59,297 nt of DNA from Alphaproteobacteria bacterium (lineage in GTDB: Bacteria > Pseudomonadota > Alphaproteobacteria > SHVP01), in contig VGES01000022.1 in NCBI GenBank assembly GCA_016869765.1, positions 1 to 59,297 on the forward strand, read 5' to 3'. The notes beneath the pieces are model-generated. The model saw only the letters and a program-made list of their open reading frames with translations, did not search any database and had not been told where the DNA came from. Positions 5,744-20,972 of the stretch are shown piece after piece; positions within the stretch are counted from its first letter, which is position 1; each line of letters starts with the position of its first letter. The translations under genes and the position numbers were made by a program.

Positions 5744-6666
5744 AGTTTCACCCGCGGGTCGATCAGCCGGTGGGCGACATCGAGCAACAGGTTGACGGCT
5801 ACGACCAGGATCGCCACCACGAAGACGATGGCCTGCACGAGGACCAGATCGTCGCGTTGAATGGCCTGCACGGCCACGAGCCCGAGCCCGGGCCAGGCGA
5901 ACACGGTTTCGACGACGATCGTGTAGCCGGCGAGCGCCCGCGTTACCTCCCAGCCGATCATCGTGAGGACCGGTACGGCAGCATTGATGAACGTGTGGAC
6001 CGTGATGACGCGTCGGGCCGGTAGACCCTTGGCGATGGCCGTGCGGACGTAGGGTGCGTTCAGTTCATCGATAAGGGTGCTGCGCAGCAACATGGCGATG
6101 CGCCCGGCCGCCGGGAGCGCCAGGGTAACGCTCGGCAGCACCAGGTGAGCCAGTCCACCCGGGCCGGAGCTTGGCAGCCATTGGAGCTTGGCCGCGAACA
6201 AGAAGATCAACATCAGGCCGAGCCAGAACAGCGGGATCGAAAGCCCGGCGAGGCTCAAGAACGAGGTGAGGCGGTCGGGCAAACGGCCTGGGTACAGGGC
6301 GGCGATCGTGCCGAGCGGCAGCGCCAGGACGACAGCCAGGGTCATCGAGGCGCCGACCAGAAGCAGCGTCCACGGCAGCCGTTCGACGATGATCTCGACA
6401 TTGGGACGGCGCTGCCAGAACGAGTCGCCGAACTCGAGCACGGTGAGCTGCCGCAGAAACTCTAGGAACTGGAGCCCGAGCGAACGATCGAGGCCGAGGT
6501 AAGCCCGAAGCTGGGCTCGCTCGGCCTCGGTCGCCTCGAGCGGGAGCATGATGGCGACGGGGTCGCCGATCAGGCGCGTAAAAACGAAAACCAGGGCCGT
6601 GACGCCGAGGACGACCACGGCCCCCTGCAACACGCGCCGAACGAAGAACCAACCGAACTCGTTCAC
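5740..6666 (-). CDS. Dpp/Opp-type ABC transporter permease (DppB-like)
   Basis: Permease of 308 residues with a GTG start at 6666. It begins with an amphipathic segment and a first membrane helix followed by a long periplasmic loop containing LRAYLGLDRSL, typical of OppB/DppB. Five further helices and an EAA loop region (YVRTAIAKGLPARRVITVH) follow. It lies 28 bases downstream of the binding-protein gene and overlaps the next permease gene by four bases, so the transporter genes form one transcription unit. Confidence 0.92.
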   Translation of the reverse strand: MNEFGWFFVRRVLQGAVVVLGVTALVFVFTRLIGDPVAIMLPLEATEAERAQLRAYLGLDRSLGLQFLEFLRQLTVLEFGDSFWQRRPNVEIIVERLPWTLLLVGASMTLAVVLALPLGTIAALYPGRLPDRLTSFLSLAGLSIPLFWLGLMLIFLFAAKLQWLPSSGPGGLAHLVLPSVTLALPAAGRIAMLLRSTLIDELNAPYVRTAIAKGLPARRVITVHTFINAAVPVLTMIGWEVTRALAGYTIVVETVFAWPGLGLVAVQAIQRDDLVLVQAIVFVVAILVVAVNLLLDVAHRLIDPRVKL

Positions 6667-6694
6667 CCCTCGCCTGCGATCCTGGTCGCGTCGG

Positions 6695-8179
6695 TCAGTT
6701 GACGCTCATTTCCTTCAGGAACACCTTGTTGTCGAGCCGCGGCTCCCAACTCATGCGGCGGCTGAGGCCATAGACGTCTTCGGTGTTGAGGAGGAACAAG
6801 AAGTAGGCCTCGTCGTAGCCGCGCTGCATGATTCGATGGTACAGCGCTTCACGTTTGGCGTTGTCCGGTTCGTTGCCCGCGGCAGCGATCCACTCGTCGA
6901 TCGTGGCATCCTCGACCGAACTCGACACCGCCCCCTTGGAACGGCTCTGGTAGAAGTTGGCGACCGTGCGCTCGGCCTCCATCAACGCATTGTTGTGGCT
7001 GGCGTAGATCACGTCGGGCCGGACCTTCGGGTCACGGAGCCGCGCCAGGTATTGATTGAACACCACCACCTTTAGGTCGGGCTTGAGCCCAATCTCCTGC
7101 CAGAAGCCGGCGATCGCCTCACCCATCTCCTTGGCCTTGGGCCAGCGACCCGCAGGAACGACGAACTCGATGGCCTTGCCCTCGGCGCCGGCCGCTTTGA
7201 TCAACGCCTTGGCCTTGGCCGGATCGTACGGCCACGGCTTGAGGTTCGGGTTGTAGCCAAAGCTGCGGTTGCCGATCATCTGGCCGTTGGCCGGCGCGGC
7301 CTGACCAAGGAAAAGGCCCTCCGCCAATGCCTGTTTGTCGATGGCGAAGTTGAGGGCCTCGCGCACGCGCTTGTCTTGCGTCGGGCCGCTGACGGCGCTC
7401 AGGATCGAGAACGAGTGTTCGAGGCCGAGTCGCCGCGCGGCCTTGGGCGCCTGCTTGACGAATTCGGCTTGCAGATTGTCGACGAAATCGAACTCCCCGG
7501 CGAGGAGGCCCGATAGCGCCGTCCCGCCTTCGCTGATGAAGCGGTAGGTCGCGCGTTGAATGGTGGGTTTGTCGCGCCAATAGTTGTCATGACGCTGCAG
7601 AACGATCCTGCTGCCCTTGACCCACTCGACGATGCGATAGGGGCCGGTCCCCACCGGCGCCTCGGCGAAGTTGGGCGCGGCGGAGGCCGTTGGCGGTACG
7701 ATCTTGAGCCAGTACATGCGGGACGGGAGTAGCGGATCGAGGCGCTCCGTCCGAACGTTGACGGTGTAGTCATCGACCTTCTCCGCTCCGCCGATGCCCC
7801 GCAGATCTCCGAGCTGGGTCGATTGATACGCCGGATCGAATATCCGCTTGATCGAATGCACCACGGCGTCGGCGTTGAACGCCTCGCCATTGTGGAACGC
7901 AATGCCGCGGCGCAGCTTGAACTGCCACGTCGTGTCACTGACGCGGGTTGGCATCTCGGCGGCCAGACCAGGGACAAGGCGACTGTCCTTGTCGCGCTCG
8001 ATCAGCGTCTCGTAGATGTTGTCGGTGATCCGTCGCTCACCGCCGTCGAACGTTTTCTGCGGATCGAGCGTCGAAGGCTCCGAGGAAATCGCCAAAGTCA
8101 CCTGGACCTGTGCGACGACCGGCAAAGCCGCAAAACAGGCTGCGGTCATCGCCGCAACCGTCAAACCGAAACGTTTCAC
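6695..8179 (-). CDS. ABC transporter substrate-binding protein, family 5
   Basis: Periplasmic solute-binding protein of 494 residues. A signal peptide (KRFGLTVAAMTAACFAALPV then VAQ) is followed by the family-5 opening SSEPSTLDPQ and the conserved RRGIAFHNGEAFNADAVV and RVREALNFAIDKQAL blocks. Family-5 proteins bind peptides, nickel chelates, glutathione or other amides. GTG at 8179 was chosen because a GGGGAGG ribosome site lies just upstream and the signal peptide then starts properly; upstream in-frame codons lack these. First gene of the eight-gene operon, so it likely sets the cargo of the 2884-6666 importer. Confidence 0.93.
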   Translation of the reverse strand: MKRFGLTVAAMTAACFAALPVVAQVQVTLAISSEPSTLDPQKTFDGGERRITDNIYETLIERDKDSRLVPGLAAEMPTRVSDTTWQFKLRRGIAFHNGEAFNADAVVHSIKRIFDPAYQSTQLGDLRGIGGAEKVDDYTVNVRTERLDPLLPSRMYWLKIVPPTASAAPNFAEAPVGTGPYRIVEWVKGSRIVLQRHDNYWRDKPTIQRATYRFISEGGTALSGLLAGEFDFVDNLQAEFVKQAPKAARRLGLEHSFSILSAVSGPTQDKRVREALNFAIDKQALAEGLFLGQAAPANGQMIGNRSFGYNPNLKPWPYDPAKAKALIKAAGAEGKAIEFVVPAGRWPKAKEMGEAIAGFWQEIGLKPDLKVVVFNQYLARLRDPKVRPDVIYASHNNALMEAERTVANFYQSRSKGAVSSSVEDATIDEWIAAAGNEPDNAKREALYHRIMQRGYDEAYFLFLLNTEDVYGLSRRMSWEPRLDNKVFLKEMSVN

Positions 8180-15006: not shown

Positions 15007-16803
15007 TCAGCGACCGACCGCGTATCCCTGCATCCCGCGCGGATTCGCCGCTGCTCGCAACAGCGCGCCATCCTGCGCCGCGGCGGTCAATCGGCCCTCG
15101 GACCAATCGCCGCCCACCTCCACGTCATGACCGCGACGCTTGAGTTCGGCGATGGTCGCCGCCGGCATCCGCCCCTCGACCGTGAGGCGGTTGAGCTTGA
15201 CCAGTCGCGGATAGAACGAACTCGGGAAGTGGTCGGTGTGAAACGATGGGCAGTCGATCGCCTGCTGCAGGTTCATGCCGTGATGGACGTGCCGCAGGAA
15301 CAGGAGCAGGGACCATTGGTCCTGCTGATCTCCGCCCGGCGTGCCGAAAGCGAGGTAGGGTTTCCCGTCGCGCAGCGCCATCGAGGGGGTCAGCGTCGTG
15401 CGCGGGCGCTTGCCCGGCGCCAAGGCGCCCGGCGAGTCGGGATCGAGCCAGAACATCTGCGCCCGCGTGCCGAGCGGAAAGCCGAGCTCCGGAATCACGG
15501 GCGAACTCTGGAACCAAGCCCCAGAAGGTGTCGCCGAGACCATGTTGCCGTGGCGATCGATTACGTCGAAGTGGCAGGTATCGCTGTTGCTCACGGCGGG
15601 TCGCATCGTGGTCGGTTCGCCAACGCCGCTCCGCACCGCCGTGGGTTCTCCGATTCCCGCAGCCGCCTGTTGTGGAACCCGTCCCAACAAAATCCGATTG
15701 TTTCGCCCAGCAATCGCCCCAGGTCGCAACTCGGTCGAGGCCGCTCGGCCGATCAACGCTCGCCGTCCATCGTTGTAGCGCTTCGACAGCAACTCCGCGA
15801 TCGGCACGTCGATCGTAGCAGGGTCGGCGTAGAAGGCCTCCCGGTCGGCAAACGATAGCTTCATCGCCTCCGTCACGACATGGACGAAGTCCGGCTCGGT
15901 GGCGGGCAGCGCGTCGAGCGGCTGCCCTTCGAGCAGGGCCAACGTCTGCAGGAACACCGGGCCCTGACTCCACGGGCCGGGCTTGCACACGGTGTAGCGA
16001 CCATAGTCATACGTGAGCGGGGCTTCGACCGACGCCGACCAGGTCGCCATGTCCTGCCCGGTCAAAACGCCCCGGTGGCGGCGCCCGGAACTGTCCATGG
16101 CCTCGGTCCGGCGGCAGAAGCTATCGATCGCGTCCGCCACGAACCCGCGATACCAGGCGCGGCGCGCCGCTTCGATGCGGGCTTCGCGAGGCCCCGCTCC
16201 AGCGCATTCGCGCAGCACACGGGAATACGTTTCGGCCAGCGCAGGATTGCGAAACAGCGTGTCAGCACTCGGCGCCTTACCACCCGGCAGGTAGACCGCC
16301 GCCGAGGTCGGCCACTCCGCCGTGAACAACGGCTGTAAACCGGCAATGATGTTGGCAACGCGGGCCGAGATCGGAAAGCCCTCCCGCGCCAACGCAATGG
16401 CCGGGCTGAGGACATCCTCAAGCGACATTGTTCCGTAGTCGCGCAGCAGCAGCATCCAGGCGTCGAACGCACCCGGCACCGTCGCGGCGAGCAGGCCGGT
16501 CCCGGGGACCAAATCGAGCCCCTGGCTCCGGTAGTGGGCAATTGTCGCGCCACCGGGCGCCACGCCCTGGCCACAGATGACCCGCACTTGCCTGGATCGC
16601 GCGTCGTAGATCAGCAAGGGAACTTCTCCGCCGGGGCCGTTCATTTCAGGCTCGACGACCTGCAGCGTGAAGCCGGTCGCGACGGCGGCATCGAAGGCAT
16701 TGCCACCTTTTTCGAGTATGGCCATGCCGACCGAGGAGGCAATCCAGTGGGTCGAAGTGACGACGCCAAACGTGCCGAGGATTTCAGGTCGGGTCGTGAA
16801 CAT
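15007..16803 (-). CDS. gamma-glutamyltransferase family protein
   Basis: Ntn-hydrolase precursor of 598 residues. The large-subunit part has GGNAFDAAVATGF and the glycine-rich PGGEVPLLIYD. The autoprocessing site is NSDTCHFDVIDRHGN, with T409 as the expected new N-terminal nucleophile, and the small-subunit part has the KRPRTTLTPSMAL and GTPGGDQQDQW segments. Family members transfer or hydrolyse gamma-glutamyl amides such as glutathione. Unlike classical periplasmic GGT no signal peptide is visible, so it is probably cytoplasmic. ATG at 16803 was chosen for its AGGGA site and because homology begins right after it. It is followed by the acyl-CoA synthetase after a 6-base gap. Confidence 0.92.
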   Translation of the reverse strand: MFTTRPEILGTFGVVTSTHWIASSVGMAILEKGGNAFDAAVATGFTLQVVEPEMNGPGGEVPLLIYDARSRQVRVICGQGVAPGGATIAHYRSQGLDLVPGTGLLAATVPGAFDAWMLLLRDYGTMSLEDVLSPAIALAREGFPISARVANIIAGLQPLFTAEWPTSAAVYLPGGKAPSADTLFRNPALAETYSRVLRECAGAGPREARIEAARRAWYRGFVADAIDSFCRRTEAMDSSGRRHRGVLTGQDMATWSASVEAPLTYDYGRYTVCKPGPWSQGPVFLQTLALLEGQPLDALPATEPDFVHVVTEAMKLSFADREAFYADPATIDVPIAELLSKRYNDGRRALIGRAASTELRPGAIAGRNNRILLGRVPQQAAAGIGEPTAVRSGVGEPTTMRPAVSNSDTCHFDVIDRHGNMVSATPSGAWFQSSPVIPELGFPLGTRAQMFWLDPDSPGALAPGKRPRTTLTPSMALRDGKPYLAFGTPGGDQQDQWSLLLFLRHVHHGMNLQQAIDCPSFHTDHFPSSFYPRLVKLNRLTVEGRMPAATIAELKRRGHDVEVGGDWSEGRLTAAAQDGALLRAAANPRGMQGYAVGR

Positions 16804-16979
16804 GCGGTTCCCTGGGGTTGACCCGACGCTTGTGCCAGGAGTGCCGGGGGAAGGCAAAGGCGTTTTTCCGGTTTTCGGGCACGTCGCGGCCGAGAACCAT
16901 GACCGCCGTTACTATTGGCATTCGCCCGTTCCCCGCTAGATTCCGGGAGCCTTCGTTTGGGCAATTCTTGGGAAGTCCG

Positions 16980-19955
16980 ATGAAGTTGTTTCGTATCGTC
17001 ACGACTCTGGCCGCGATCACGCTGTTCGCATCGTCCGCGACAGCCCAGCGCAACCTGGATGAGGCGATCAAGGTGATCGAAGACGCGGCCGCGGGAACCC
17101 AGGCGGCCGGAACGCCTGTGTCCTTCGTCGCCCCGCCACGCACCATCGCCGACATCACCGAGATTCTCGACCGCCAGAAGCCCGATCCAACCAAGCGAGC
17201 GCAATTGATCGCGCGGGCGGACGCTGAACCGCCGCAGCGGATGTCGATCAGCGAGCGGGCCGATTTCTTCTTGGATCGCGGGTTGGCGGCCGCCGAACTG
17301 GGACGCGCGCAACAACGCCTCGACGATATCCACCGCGGGTATCGCATCGCGCAGGAAGCAAAATTCCCACCATCCCGGATGATGAACATCTTGAATCTCG
17401 TGGCCCTCGCGCGCCAGGGCGTCGGCAATTTCCAGGGTTATTTGGGCGCTCAGAACGAGCGGCTCGCACTCGCTGACCGCATGGACGCGGACTCGGCTGC
17501 CAACTGGATCATCGGCATCAACTTCGGCAAAGTCAGCGCTGCCGCAAATCTCGGGCGCCTCGACCTCGGACGTTCGTCCCTTGCCACCGCCGAGAAAGCG
17601 CTCGCCAACCTGCCGGTCCGTTACGGCCAGAACCAGCGCGACAATCTGAACGCGTTGGTCTGGCGTGCCCGGGCGATTAATCATCTGGTGGCGGGCAACT
17701 ACGACGATGCTGACAAGGCGGCGCGCCAATCCATTGCGTTGTTCTCGAGGTTGGTCGGCTTGGAGAAGGAGATGAGCAACACGACGCCCGGAACGTTTGC
17801 CAACCAGCGCGACTCGGCGCGAACCGACCTCGCCAAGGCGTTGATGAACCAAGGGCGCCTCGTCGAAGCCGAGAGCGAGATCCGAATCGCCCTTCTGAGC
17901 CGCCTCGAGCGTCACGGCCGCTATGCATCCGAAACCGCGGTGACGCTCAATTTCTTGACCCGCCTGCTGATCGAGCAGCGACGGCATACCGAAGCCGCTC
18001 ATCTCGCTGATGCCGTGATCGACATCTACGAGAACATCGGCCACAAGGCGGGGTCCTTCACGTTGGCGCAGGCGCGGTCACTGAGGGCGCTGGCAGAGCT
18101 CGGCGGCGAGAACGCTCGGGCTGCGCGCGCGACCTACCGCCAGATCGAAAGCGACGCCGCCGAAGCGCCCCGCATCAAGGAGAACTTCCTCGACAGCAAC
18201 GGAATCTATGGGACGGTCCTCTATGCCGCGGGCGAGTACCCAGCGGCCGCAAACGTACTGACAGCAACGGTCGAGAAAGCACGGAAAGCCGTCGGTGACC
18301 GCGGTTATGAACTCGCGAAGTGGCGAGGCTGGTTGGCCATGGCGCTGGCCAAATCGGGGGACGCGGAGAAGGCGGAGGCGGAGTTCAACGCGTCGATCCC
18401 GATCCTGCTGACGCCGTCGCGTGCGGCGGAGGATCGCGACGATGACGGCGGATCGGCCGACCAGCGCGATCGGCGCACGCAGAAGGTCGTCGAAGGGTAC
18501 CTGTCGCTGCTGTTCGACACGAAGGGTCCGGCGGCGGCGGAAGAAGCGTTTCGTCTGGCGGACGCGGTGCGGGGCAAGTCGGTGCAGCGGGCCTTGGCCG
18601 CCTCGGCGGCGCGGACGGCGCTGCGCGAGCCGGGGCTCGCCAAATTGGCACGCCTGGAACAGGACGCGCAGAAGCAGGTGGCAGCGCTCCAGGGTGCGCT
18701 CACCAACATGCTGACCCGTCCGACCGAGGAACAGGACGCCAACGAGATCCGCAGCTTGCGTGAACGGATCGACCAGCTGCGCAACGCGCGCGCGCTGGTG
18801 CGCCAGGAGATCGAAGCCAAGTCGCCCGAGTACGTCGGCCTGATCGATCCGCGGCCGGCGACGATCGAGCAGGTACAGAAGACCTTGCGCCCCGGCGAAG
18901 CGATGATCGTCACCTACACGGGCGATGAACGGCTGTTCGTGTGGGCGATCCCGCAACAGGGACAGGCCGCCTTCGCCTCGAGCAAAGTCGCCAATCGCGA
19001 GATCGACGCCATGGTGGGCGAGTTGCGCAAGGCGCTCGACCCGGCGGCCTCTTCGATCGAGGAGGTTCCGGCCTTCGATGTGGCATTGGCCAGCAAGCTC
19101 TATGACATGCTCTTGAAGCCGATCCAGGCCGGCTGGTCCCAGGCCCAGAGCCTGTTCATCGTGCCACATGGCTCGCTCGGACAGCTGCCGATGGCGCTGC
19201 TCGTGACCGAGCCCGCGACCCTTACCACGGGCGCCCTGCCGTTCGCCGAGTACAAGGCTGTGTCGTTCCTCGCCCGCAAGGCCGCCGTAACCCAACTGCC
19301 CTCGGTGGCGGCGCTGGCGGCGCTGCGCTCGGTTCCGGCGCCGACCGGGGAGCGCCAGCACCTGGCCGCCTTCGGCGATCCGTGGTTCTCGGACGATCAG
19401 GCCAAGGATGGGCGGGCCCAACGCGTGGCCCAGGCCGGTGGCCTGCAAACCCGCGGCATCCCGCTCCTGCGTCGCAACGTGCCCAAGACCGAGGGCGTCA
19501 ACTCGGCGGAGCTGGCGCTGTTGCCACGGCTCCCCGATACGGCGGACGAGGTACGCAGCGTGGCGCTAGCGCTCAAGGCCGACGTCACCAAGGACGTCCT
19601 CTTGGGCGATGCCGCCAACGAGAAGGCCGTGAAGGCGATGGACCTGTCCAACCGCCGGGTCGTCATGTTCGCGACCCATGGTCTGGTTCCCGGGGACCTC
19701 AATGGTTTGACCCAACCGGCGTTGGCCCTGTCGGCCCCATCGGTCGCCAACGTCGATGGTGATGGCCTCCTCACCATGGAGGAGATGCGATCGTCGCGCT
19801 GTTCGGCGCGCCACTGGTCGATCCCGACCATGCCCGGCACGCCGCCCTGGCCGCGCTCGCCTGCCGCCAACGGTTGCAGCGCCTCAACGCCGAGTTCCCG
19901 GGGCTTGCCAAACCGCTCTCGCAACGGATCGGGCTCAACACGGGCCGCGCGTTGA
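16980..19955 (+). CDS. TPR-CHAT protein, truncated in the protease core
   Basis: Secreted or periplasmic protein with signal peptide KLFRIVTTLAAITLFASSA then TAQ, a long helical TPR region to about residue 520, a coiled segment, and a C-terminal CHAT (caspase-like) domain. The catalytic histidine is present in FATHGLVPGDLNG (H900), but the frame leaves the family at LLTMEEM near residue 936. The downstream strand with the catalytic cysteine (SACNT-like) is missing, and 55 unrelated residues follow to a stop at 19955. The sequence after the break belongs, in another frame, to a class III adenylate cyclase. ATG at 16980 has a GGGAAG site. The product is probably inactive as a peptidase although the TPR part could still be made. 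Confidence 0.82.
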   Translation: MKLFRIVTTLAAITLFASSATAQRNLDEAIKVIEDAAAGTQAAGTPVSFVAPPRTIADITEILDRQKPDPTKRAQLIARADAEPPQRMSISERADFFLDRGLAAAELGRAQQRLDDIHRGYRIAQEAKFPPSRMMNILNLVALARQGVGNFQGYLGAQNERLALADRMDADSAANWIIGINFGKVSAAANLGRLDLGRSSLATAEKALANLPVRYGQNQRDNLNALVWRARAINHLVAGNYDDADKAARQSIALFSRLVGLEKEMSNTTPGTFANQRDSARTDLAKALMNQGRLVEAESEIRIALLSRLERHGRYASETAVTLNFLTRLLIEQRRHTEAAHLADAVIDIYENIGHKAGSFTLAQARSLRALAELGGENARAARATYRQIESDAAEAPRIKENFLDSNGIYGTVLYAAGEYPAAANVLTATVEKARKAVGDRGYELAKWRGWLAMALAKSGDAEKAEAEFNASIPILLTPSRAAEDRDDDGGSADQRDRRTQKVVEGYLSLLFDTKGPAAAEEAFRLADAVRGKSVQRALAASAARTALREPGLAKLARLEQDAQKQVAALQGALTNMLTRPTEEQDANEIRSLRERIDQLRNARALVRQEIEAKSPEYVGLIDPRPATIEQVQKTLRPGEAMIVTYTGDERLFVWAIPQQGQAAFASSKVANREIDAMVGELRKALDPAASSIEEVPAFDVALASKLYDMLLKPIQAGWSQAQSLFIVPHGSLGQLPMALLVTEPATLTTGALPFAEYKAVSFLARKAAVTQLPSVAALAALRSVPAPTGERQHLAAFGDPWFSDDQAKDGRAQRVAQAGGLQTRGIPLLRRNVPKTEGVNSAELALLPRLPDTADEVRSVALALKADVTKDVLLGDAANEKAVKAMDLSNRRVVMFATHGLVPGDLNGLTQPALALSAPSVANVDGDGLLTMEEMRSSRCSARHWSIPTMPGTPPWPRSPAANGCSASTPSSRGLPNRSRNGSGSTRAAR

Positions 19956-20374
19956 TCGGCAATATCGGGTCGGCGCGACGCTTCAACTACACGGCCATGG
20001 GCGACACCGTGAACCTCGCCTCTCGCCTGGAAGGGGCCAACAAGGCGTTCGGCACCGATGTGCTCGCCGCGCAGGCGACGCGGGATGCCGCTTCGGATCT
20101 GTCGTGGCTCGAACTCGACGCGATCAAGGTCGTGGGCCGCGGCCGGCCTGTCGGGGTGTTCACGCTGATCGAGCCAGCCGATGCCCCGTTTGCCGCGACC
20201 TACACCCAGGCGCTCGAGGCCTTCCGAACCCGCCAGTTCGAGCGGGCGGCCAATCTTCTAACGCCCTTCGCTGAGCGCAAGGCCGCAAGTTCTCTGCTGT
20301 GGCGAGCGACCGCCTACCTTGCCGATCCACCGCCCGCCGATTGGGTGGCCGTCAATTCGCTCAGCGAGAAGTAG
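19781..20374 (+). pseudogene. class III adenylate cyclase, 3-prime remnant
   Basis: About 197 residues in a frame different from the CHAT gene. It starts abruptly at GDAIVALFGAPLVDPDHA, then shows NTGRALIGNIGSARRFNYT and the cyclase core MGDTVNLASRLEGANK with the Asn/Arg of the transition-state site, then a short tail with TPR-like helices. The first half of the catalytic domain with the first metal-binding aspartate, and any sensor or membrane part, is absent. The match begins exactly where the CHAT gene breaks off, with the sequence GGAGATGCG able to belong to either parent. An internal ATG at 19874 could start a fragment, but it would lack catalytic residues. Stop codon overlaps the convergent gene by 14 bases. 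Confidence 0.8.
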
Positions 20375-20972
20375 TAGCAGCAAACGGCCTGCGATCCCCG
20401 CGGGCGGGCACGTCGAAGGCCGTCAGCACGCTGCACAACAGACCGTAGTAACCGACAAGGGCTGCGAGTTCGACGACACCGCGTTCGCGGAAGCGAGCGA
20501 GCACCTCGCGATGCAACCCGTCGTCGATGCTCCGCCGATCGAGGAGGCTCCGGGCGTACCGAAGGGCCAAAGCTTGACCCTCCGGCAGCACCGGAGACCG
20601 TCCATCACGCAGGGTCGCAATGACGGCCTCGGAGATCCCGGCGCGAAGCGCGTAGCCCGCGTGATTGTCCCACGCGTAGGCGCAACGCCAATGGGCGGCA
20701 ACCGAAAGGATCACCAACTCCATGAGAGCGACCGGAAGCGACGAACCGTTTCTCAGGTGCAGCCCGAGATCGGTCACCCGAGGCGCCAGACCCGGCGAAA
20801 ACAACAGCGCCGATGCCGGACCTTCGATGGTCGCCGACCGCTCTTCGCCGAGCGCGCGATAGACGTCGCTTCGCGCGGTCGCAGAATGGCGTCGCAGGCG
20901 TGCCAGGGCGGCATGATCTTCTTGCAGCTCGGGCGCCAGCAATTCGGGGGACAACGATGGCAATCGGGACAT
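20361..20972 (-). CDS. carboxymuconolactone decarboxylase-like (AhpD-fold) protein
   Basis: All-helical protein of 203 residues. The central segment MELVILSVAAHWRCAYAWDNH followed by AGYALRAGISEAVI matches the carboxymuconolactone decarboxylase family, in which the helix carrying Cys or Tyr and the terminal His forms the active site. Only one cysteine is present (no CxxC), so a thiol-peroxidase role like AhpD is unlikely. ATG at 20972 precedes a clean N-terminus. It is divergent from the aldo/keto reductase (79-base gap) and converges on the cyclase remnant. Substrate unknown. Confidence 0.88.
   Translation of the reverse strand: MSRLPSLSPELLAPELQEDHAALARLRRHSATARSDVYRALGEERSATIEGPASALLFSPGLAPRVTDLGLHLRNGSSLPVALMELVILSVAAHWRCAYAWDNHAGYALRAGISEAVIATLRDGRSPVLPEGQALALRYARSLLDRRSIDDGLHREVLARFRERGVVELAALVGYYGLLCSVLTAFDVPARGDRRPFAATTSR

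Follow-up and report, generated by a model that had tools for sequence, protein, structure and literature searches.

TPR-CHAT proteins (Pfam PF12770) are clan CD cysteine proteases, and the CHAT proteases of these clan CD families rely on a His-Cys pair. Class III cyclases require two metal-binding Asp residues. Remnants of genes fused by illegitimate recombination, through short homology or none, are a commonly described kind of pseudogene. The locus analysed here lies within a 59,297-nucleotide stretch of alphaproteobacterial DNA (the window). Its first gene resembles the TPR-CHAT proteins in possessing a TPR region and a CHAT domain with the FATHG His; it is, however, truncated upstream of the catalytic Cys strand, and its final 55 residues are out of frame. 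Its second component shares with CHASE2-class III cyclases (PF05226 with PF00211) the second catalytic half from GDA and a C-terminal extension ending LSEK, whereas CHASE2, the membrane segments and the first catalytic half have gone.

Two gene remnants and their junction

The locus is bordered by a gamma-glutamyltransferase gene (15007-16857) on one side and a CMD-family gene (20361-20972) on the other. The open reading frame that starts at 16980 ends at 19955 and encodes 991 aa. It comprises a signal-peptide-like start, a TPR region and a CHAT domain in which the FATHG motif supplies the catalytic His (residue 900) that an active TPR-CHAT protease requires; the part with the catalytic Cys is absent, and only positions 2-184 of the 289 in the Pfam CHAT profile are covered. 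Full-length CHAT homologues, at most 53% identical to the remnant, align with it over residues 42-935. The final residue homologous to the family is M936 (codon 19785-19787), and the departure falls 15 residues upstream of the catalytic Cys. Both the catalytic His and SACNT are present in all 29 homologous CHAT loci, usually with 55 residues from THG to SACNT, and each of the 29 runs on via LxLKLDADWVVLSACNT into the remaining domain, which the window does not have. The catalytic Cys (LSACNT, ~50 residues after the His) is absent from the window's CHAT frame, where Cys occurs only at 941 and 966, both within the out-of-frame tail. A sequence-only reading of this DNA had described a CHAT gene that keeps His900 and leaves its family before the Cys strand, and in this it was right.

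The 55-residue tail, which that reading had singled out for alignment against any protein, showed no homology to any by BLAST or in alignment A2; BLAST alignments pass the break by a few residues owing only to a chance Trp match. The GC content of third codon positions is 0.825 in the CHAT part and 0.817 in the cyclase part, and the codon-position pattern is shifted in the tail, so each reading fits its own side of the junction.

The second half of a cyclase had been recognised in another frame from 19781, and the identification holds, as does every coordinate that matters. The frame 19781-20374 reads GDAIVALFGAP...VNSLSEK, matches positions 58-142 of the 183 in the Guanylate_cyc profile and is, over its full length, 63-64% identical to residues ~516-711 of a 711-aa CHASE2-cyclase (locus L044) from G002, a genome of the same family. 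Retained are the second metal Asp (GDA) and the Asn and Arg of NLASRLE (alignment A3); missing are the first metal Asp (FSD), the FSDxAGF region and with them the first half of the catalytic domain, together with CHASE2, the membrane segments and a start of its own.

Bases common to both parents had also been proposed at the join. GAT (19784-19786, 3 nt) is certain; the longer overlap, GGAGAT(GCG) or GGAGATGCG, is an upper limit only (6-9 nt), given the rarity of GGA and the codons of relatives. Here GGA accounts for 13% of Gly codons, 8/8 cyclase relatives checked use GGC or GGT for the Gly of GDA, and the codon after EE[I/V] specifies Leu or Met (CTN or ATG) in every CHAT relative checked. 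From this codon use, the CHAT gene most likely contributed the A at 19783, and the cyclase the CG at 19788-19789. A random join would give at least 3 common bases with p ~0.05 and at least 6 with p ~0.001, so the 3-nt overlap says little. On the bases themselves, microhomology at the junction is possible, with 3 nt safe and 6-9 at most.

Features of the window and of the intact clusters in seven relatives (relatives are numbered in their own locus coordinates)
Feature	Coordinates	Strand	Basis
TPR-CHAT gene remnant, 936 codons	16980..19787	+	Pfam TPR_12 and CHAT; homologue identity; His900
Junction, bases attributable to either parent	19781..19790	+	Codon comparison with relatives; 17-mer and second-match searches
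Out-of-frame CHAT ORF tail, 55 codons and stop, read through cyclase sequence	19788..19955	+	Alignment A2; codon-position GC
CHASE2-type class III adenylate/guanylate cyclase, final 197 codons and stop	19781..20374	+	Guanylate_cyc match; L044 identity; alignment A3; tree
Intact cluster L047	5342-11190		
Intact cluster L048	6349-12329		
Intact cluster L108	1189-7163		
Intact cluster L112	2049-7784		
Intact cluster L113	1295-6982		
Intact cluster L114	1427-7217		
Intact cluster L119	1755-7843		

Two possible sources of the missing parts within the window's own genome (G000) were set aside. Its second CHAT gene (contig C1, 838-851 aa), which has both His and Cys, is a remote paralogue with 27% identity. 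Contigs C84, C99 and C2, each ending or starting inside a CHASE2-cyclase gene, have no long sequence in common with the junction. CHASE2 domains are absent from the window's contig and exceed the cut-off in G000 only on C84 and C99, where the genes are of a different type from the window cyclase. A near-identical repeat is common to all three contigs, C2 bearing the MGDCIMAFWNAP type. As a separate observation, C84 (at its end), C99 (at its start) and C2 (at its start), at loci L073, L074 and L075, stop inside near-identical CHASE2-cyclase genes, the assembly having broken at a repeat of ~150-200 bp.

The intact cluster in relatives

Intact CHAT and cyclase genes, for which the earlier reading had proposed a search, were found in related genomes, in the same order and orientation and with a third gene between them. 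In seven relatives (L047, L048, L108, L112, L113, L114 and L119) the CHAT gene, a gene for a secreted protein of ~220 aa and a CHASE2-cyclase gene follow one another on the same strand, and this cluster is conserved over several alphaproteobacterial families. An eighth, more distant locus (L050) has CHAT, a 230-aa gene and cyclase in that order, its middle gene being without a BLAST match. CHAT and cyclase also lie side by side at L109, L116 and L118, with a different order or orientation. In the remaining CHAT loci, among the ~25 with enough flank, the two are unlinked; these include the closest CHAT homologues, L106 (53%) and L107 (48-50%), which have no neighbouring cyclase. From the CHAT break point to the cyclase GDA, the seven intact clusters measure 2,553-2,660 bp. 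The window holds both outer ends of the cluster, in the order and orientation seen in relatives, and the middle gene is wholly missing from it and was not found elsewhere in G000.

In alignment A1, which has 10 members, the middle protein shows a signal-like stretch at its N-terminus along with two invariant Cys residues and a YxxSCxxExIxGGxVxxG motif. Its AlphaFold2 model is all-beta and in two parts (pLDDT 80, pTM 0.44). A first impression of a FecR-like protein was dropped, since neither Pfam nor NCBIfam gave a significant match and the model had no significant match in the PDB.

In a tree that took in two other G000 cyclases beside those of the clusters, the cyclase remnant of the window pairs as sister with L044 (support 100/98), whose cyclase gene is likewise preceded by the small gene. 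Both belong to a 14-row group that contains all 11 cluster cyclases (99/98), away from the two other G000 cyclases.

Several features of the relatives deserve mention in their own right. At L044 (4205-10994; G002:C34) the small gene and the CHASE2-cyclase are followed by two caspase-like genes, with no CHAT gene ahead; one of the caspase-like genes (6112-8157) combines a Peptidase_C14 domain with a TctC solute-binding domain, an odd pairing. The two CHAT copies of G002, on C23 (L045, 10596-14015) and C251 (L046), are near-identical in their C-terminal parts, and at the end of C23 the final 36 CHAT residues occur a second time, as from former tandem copies. The CHAT homologue at G280:C67 9237-11816 (L113) is reported with one in-frame TAG stop and is possibly another decaying copy.

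A probable single deletion and its alternatives

We favour, at a probability of roughly 0.7, a single recent deletion of ~2.6 kb inside one cluster, present in at least part of the population and hitting all three genes. The ancestral locus would have carried, on the + strand, a TPR-CHAT protease, a small secreted two-domain beta protein and a CHASE2-membrane cyclase, in that order. Loss of ~2.55-2.66 kb would have taken the last ~110-120 CHAT codons (the catalytic Cys included), the entire middle gene and the first ~515 cyclase codons, and what remained on either side would have come together out of frame. We infer that the event happened inside the cell and is not a product of the assembler, and that it came about by illegitimate and possibly short-homology recombination; slippage and end joining are both conceivable, each with or without short homology. 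The CHAT remnant is left without half of its His-Cys dyad and the cyclase without CHASE2, anchor, first metal Asp and start; therefore, all three genes would be dead. That both products are inactive had been anticipated, and the missing Cys and the missing first metal Asp support it. Neither remnant contains a second lesion (stop or frameshift) and third-position GC is normal, so the deletion looks recent.

The sequence-only reading had placed the deletion between two neighbouring genes. The deletion itself and its confinement to one cluster are upheld by the seven relatives, but direct adjacency is not: relatives have the ~220-aa gene in between, and by comparison with them CHAT and cyclase were probably not direct neighbours before the deletion, the gene for the secreted protein having been lost from between them. 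Since neither the closest CHAT homologues nor the same-family G002 copies (L045, L046) have a neighbouring cyclase, the former linkage in the window's lineage is drawn from relatives further away (L108, at 46-47% identity) as well as from the sequence.

It is unlikely that the junction is an assembly join, in which the cell would have an intact three-gene cluster and the assembler would have lost the middle 2.6 kb or merged two strains or contigs. The genome is a draft of 164 contigs, several of which end within related cyclase genes (C84, C99, C2), and this lends the idea some credence. Those breaks, however, suggest that the assembler halted at repeats and did not jump, and the 3-9 nt that could be shared at the join are far below the usual assembler k-mer. 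In the own-genome pieces compared, none of the 17-mers near the junction occurs again, and genome-wide the 361-bp region 19600-19960 has weak second matches but no strong one, so one would not expect a misjoin of the ordinary k-mer kind. Furthermore, in a genome rated 99.6% complete, the missing pieces lie on no other contig: within G000 a CHAT C-terminus occurs only in the distant paralogue on C1, and the N-terminal part of a window-type cyclase was not found elsewhere. Because contigs were kept down to the smallest, of 1,578 bp, an orphan piece of 2.6 kb would probably have been kept too. Among plasmid records, none resembles the region.

Marginally less probable still is a rearrangement that united a stand-alone CHAT gene with a secreted-protein/cyclase pair from elsewhere. 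It draws on the closest CHAT homologues being unlinked to a cyclase, and on the arrangement in the same-family genome G002, where the CHAT copies (L045 on C23, L046 on C251) do not adjoin a cyclase, the nearest cyclase being on C34. Such a rearrangement would nevertheless demand that the two parts meet in the correct order and orientation, and that the cyclase be of precisely the type that accompanies CHAT in seven relatives; its reciprocal product was not found in the genome. That the chimera is functional, with the truncated CHAT protein serving for binding only, as a pseudoprotease, or with the cyclase half expressed and paired with another cyclase, is highly improbable: the frames are open for 936 and 197 codons, stop-free and with third-position GC still normal, but a recent deletion also yields open frames, the cyclase half has neither its own gene start nor the first metal Asp, the CHAT protein ends in 55 unrelated residues, and the chimera, whose recurrence had been named as an argument against deletion, is seen in none of the homologues and in no other genome searched.

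From the scar to the cluster

Following the single deletion that we prefer, the appropriate annotation for the locus is a pair of pseudogene fragments, not a fusion protein. The scar is also of use as a pointer, for accounting for it revealed a conserved three-gene cluster in which a CHAT protease is linked with a CHASE2 cyclase. The papers searched in full text contain no description of a cluster of CHAT, secreted beta protein and CHASE2-cyclase, and none of the papers searched mentions CHASE2 alongside a CHAT domain, or in combination with both CHAT and FecR. It is tempting to speculate, and for now only tentatively, that the intact cluster may be an undescribed alphaproteobacterial envelope signalling system, which has been deleted in some lineages and in which an exported CHAT protease, a secreted beta protein (two domains, a conserved pair of Cys, no Pfam family) and the CHASE2 sensor of a membrane cyclase would together control cyclic nucleotide synthesis. 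Hence it is the intact cluster, rather than the scar, that might repay further work.

The locus itself represents a loss of function that is ordinary but well documented. Like other gene remnants fused by deletion, it has one breakpoint, retains the outer ends of one cluster and is joined out of frame; in this comparison, nothing about it is unusual.
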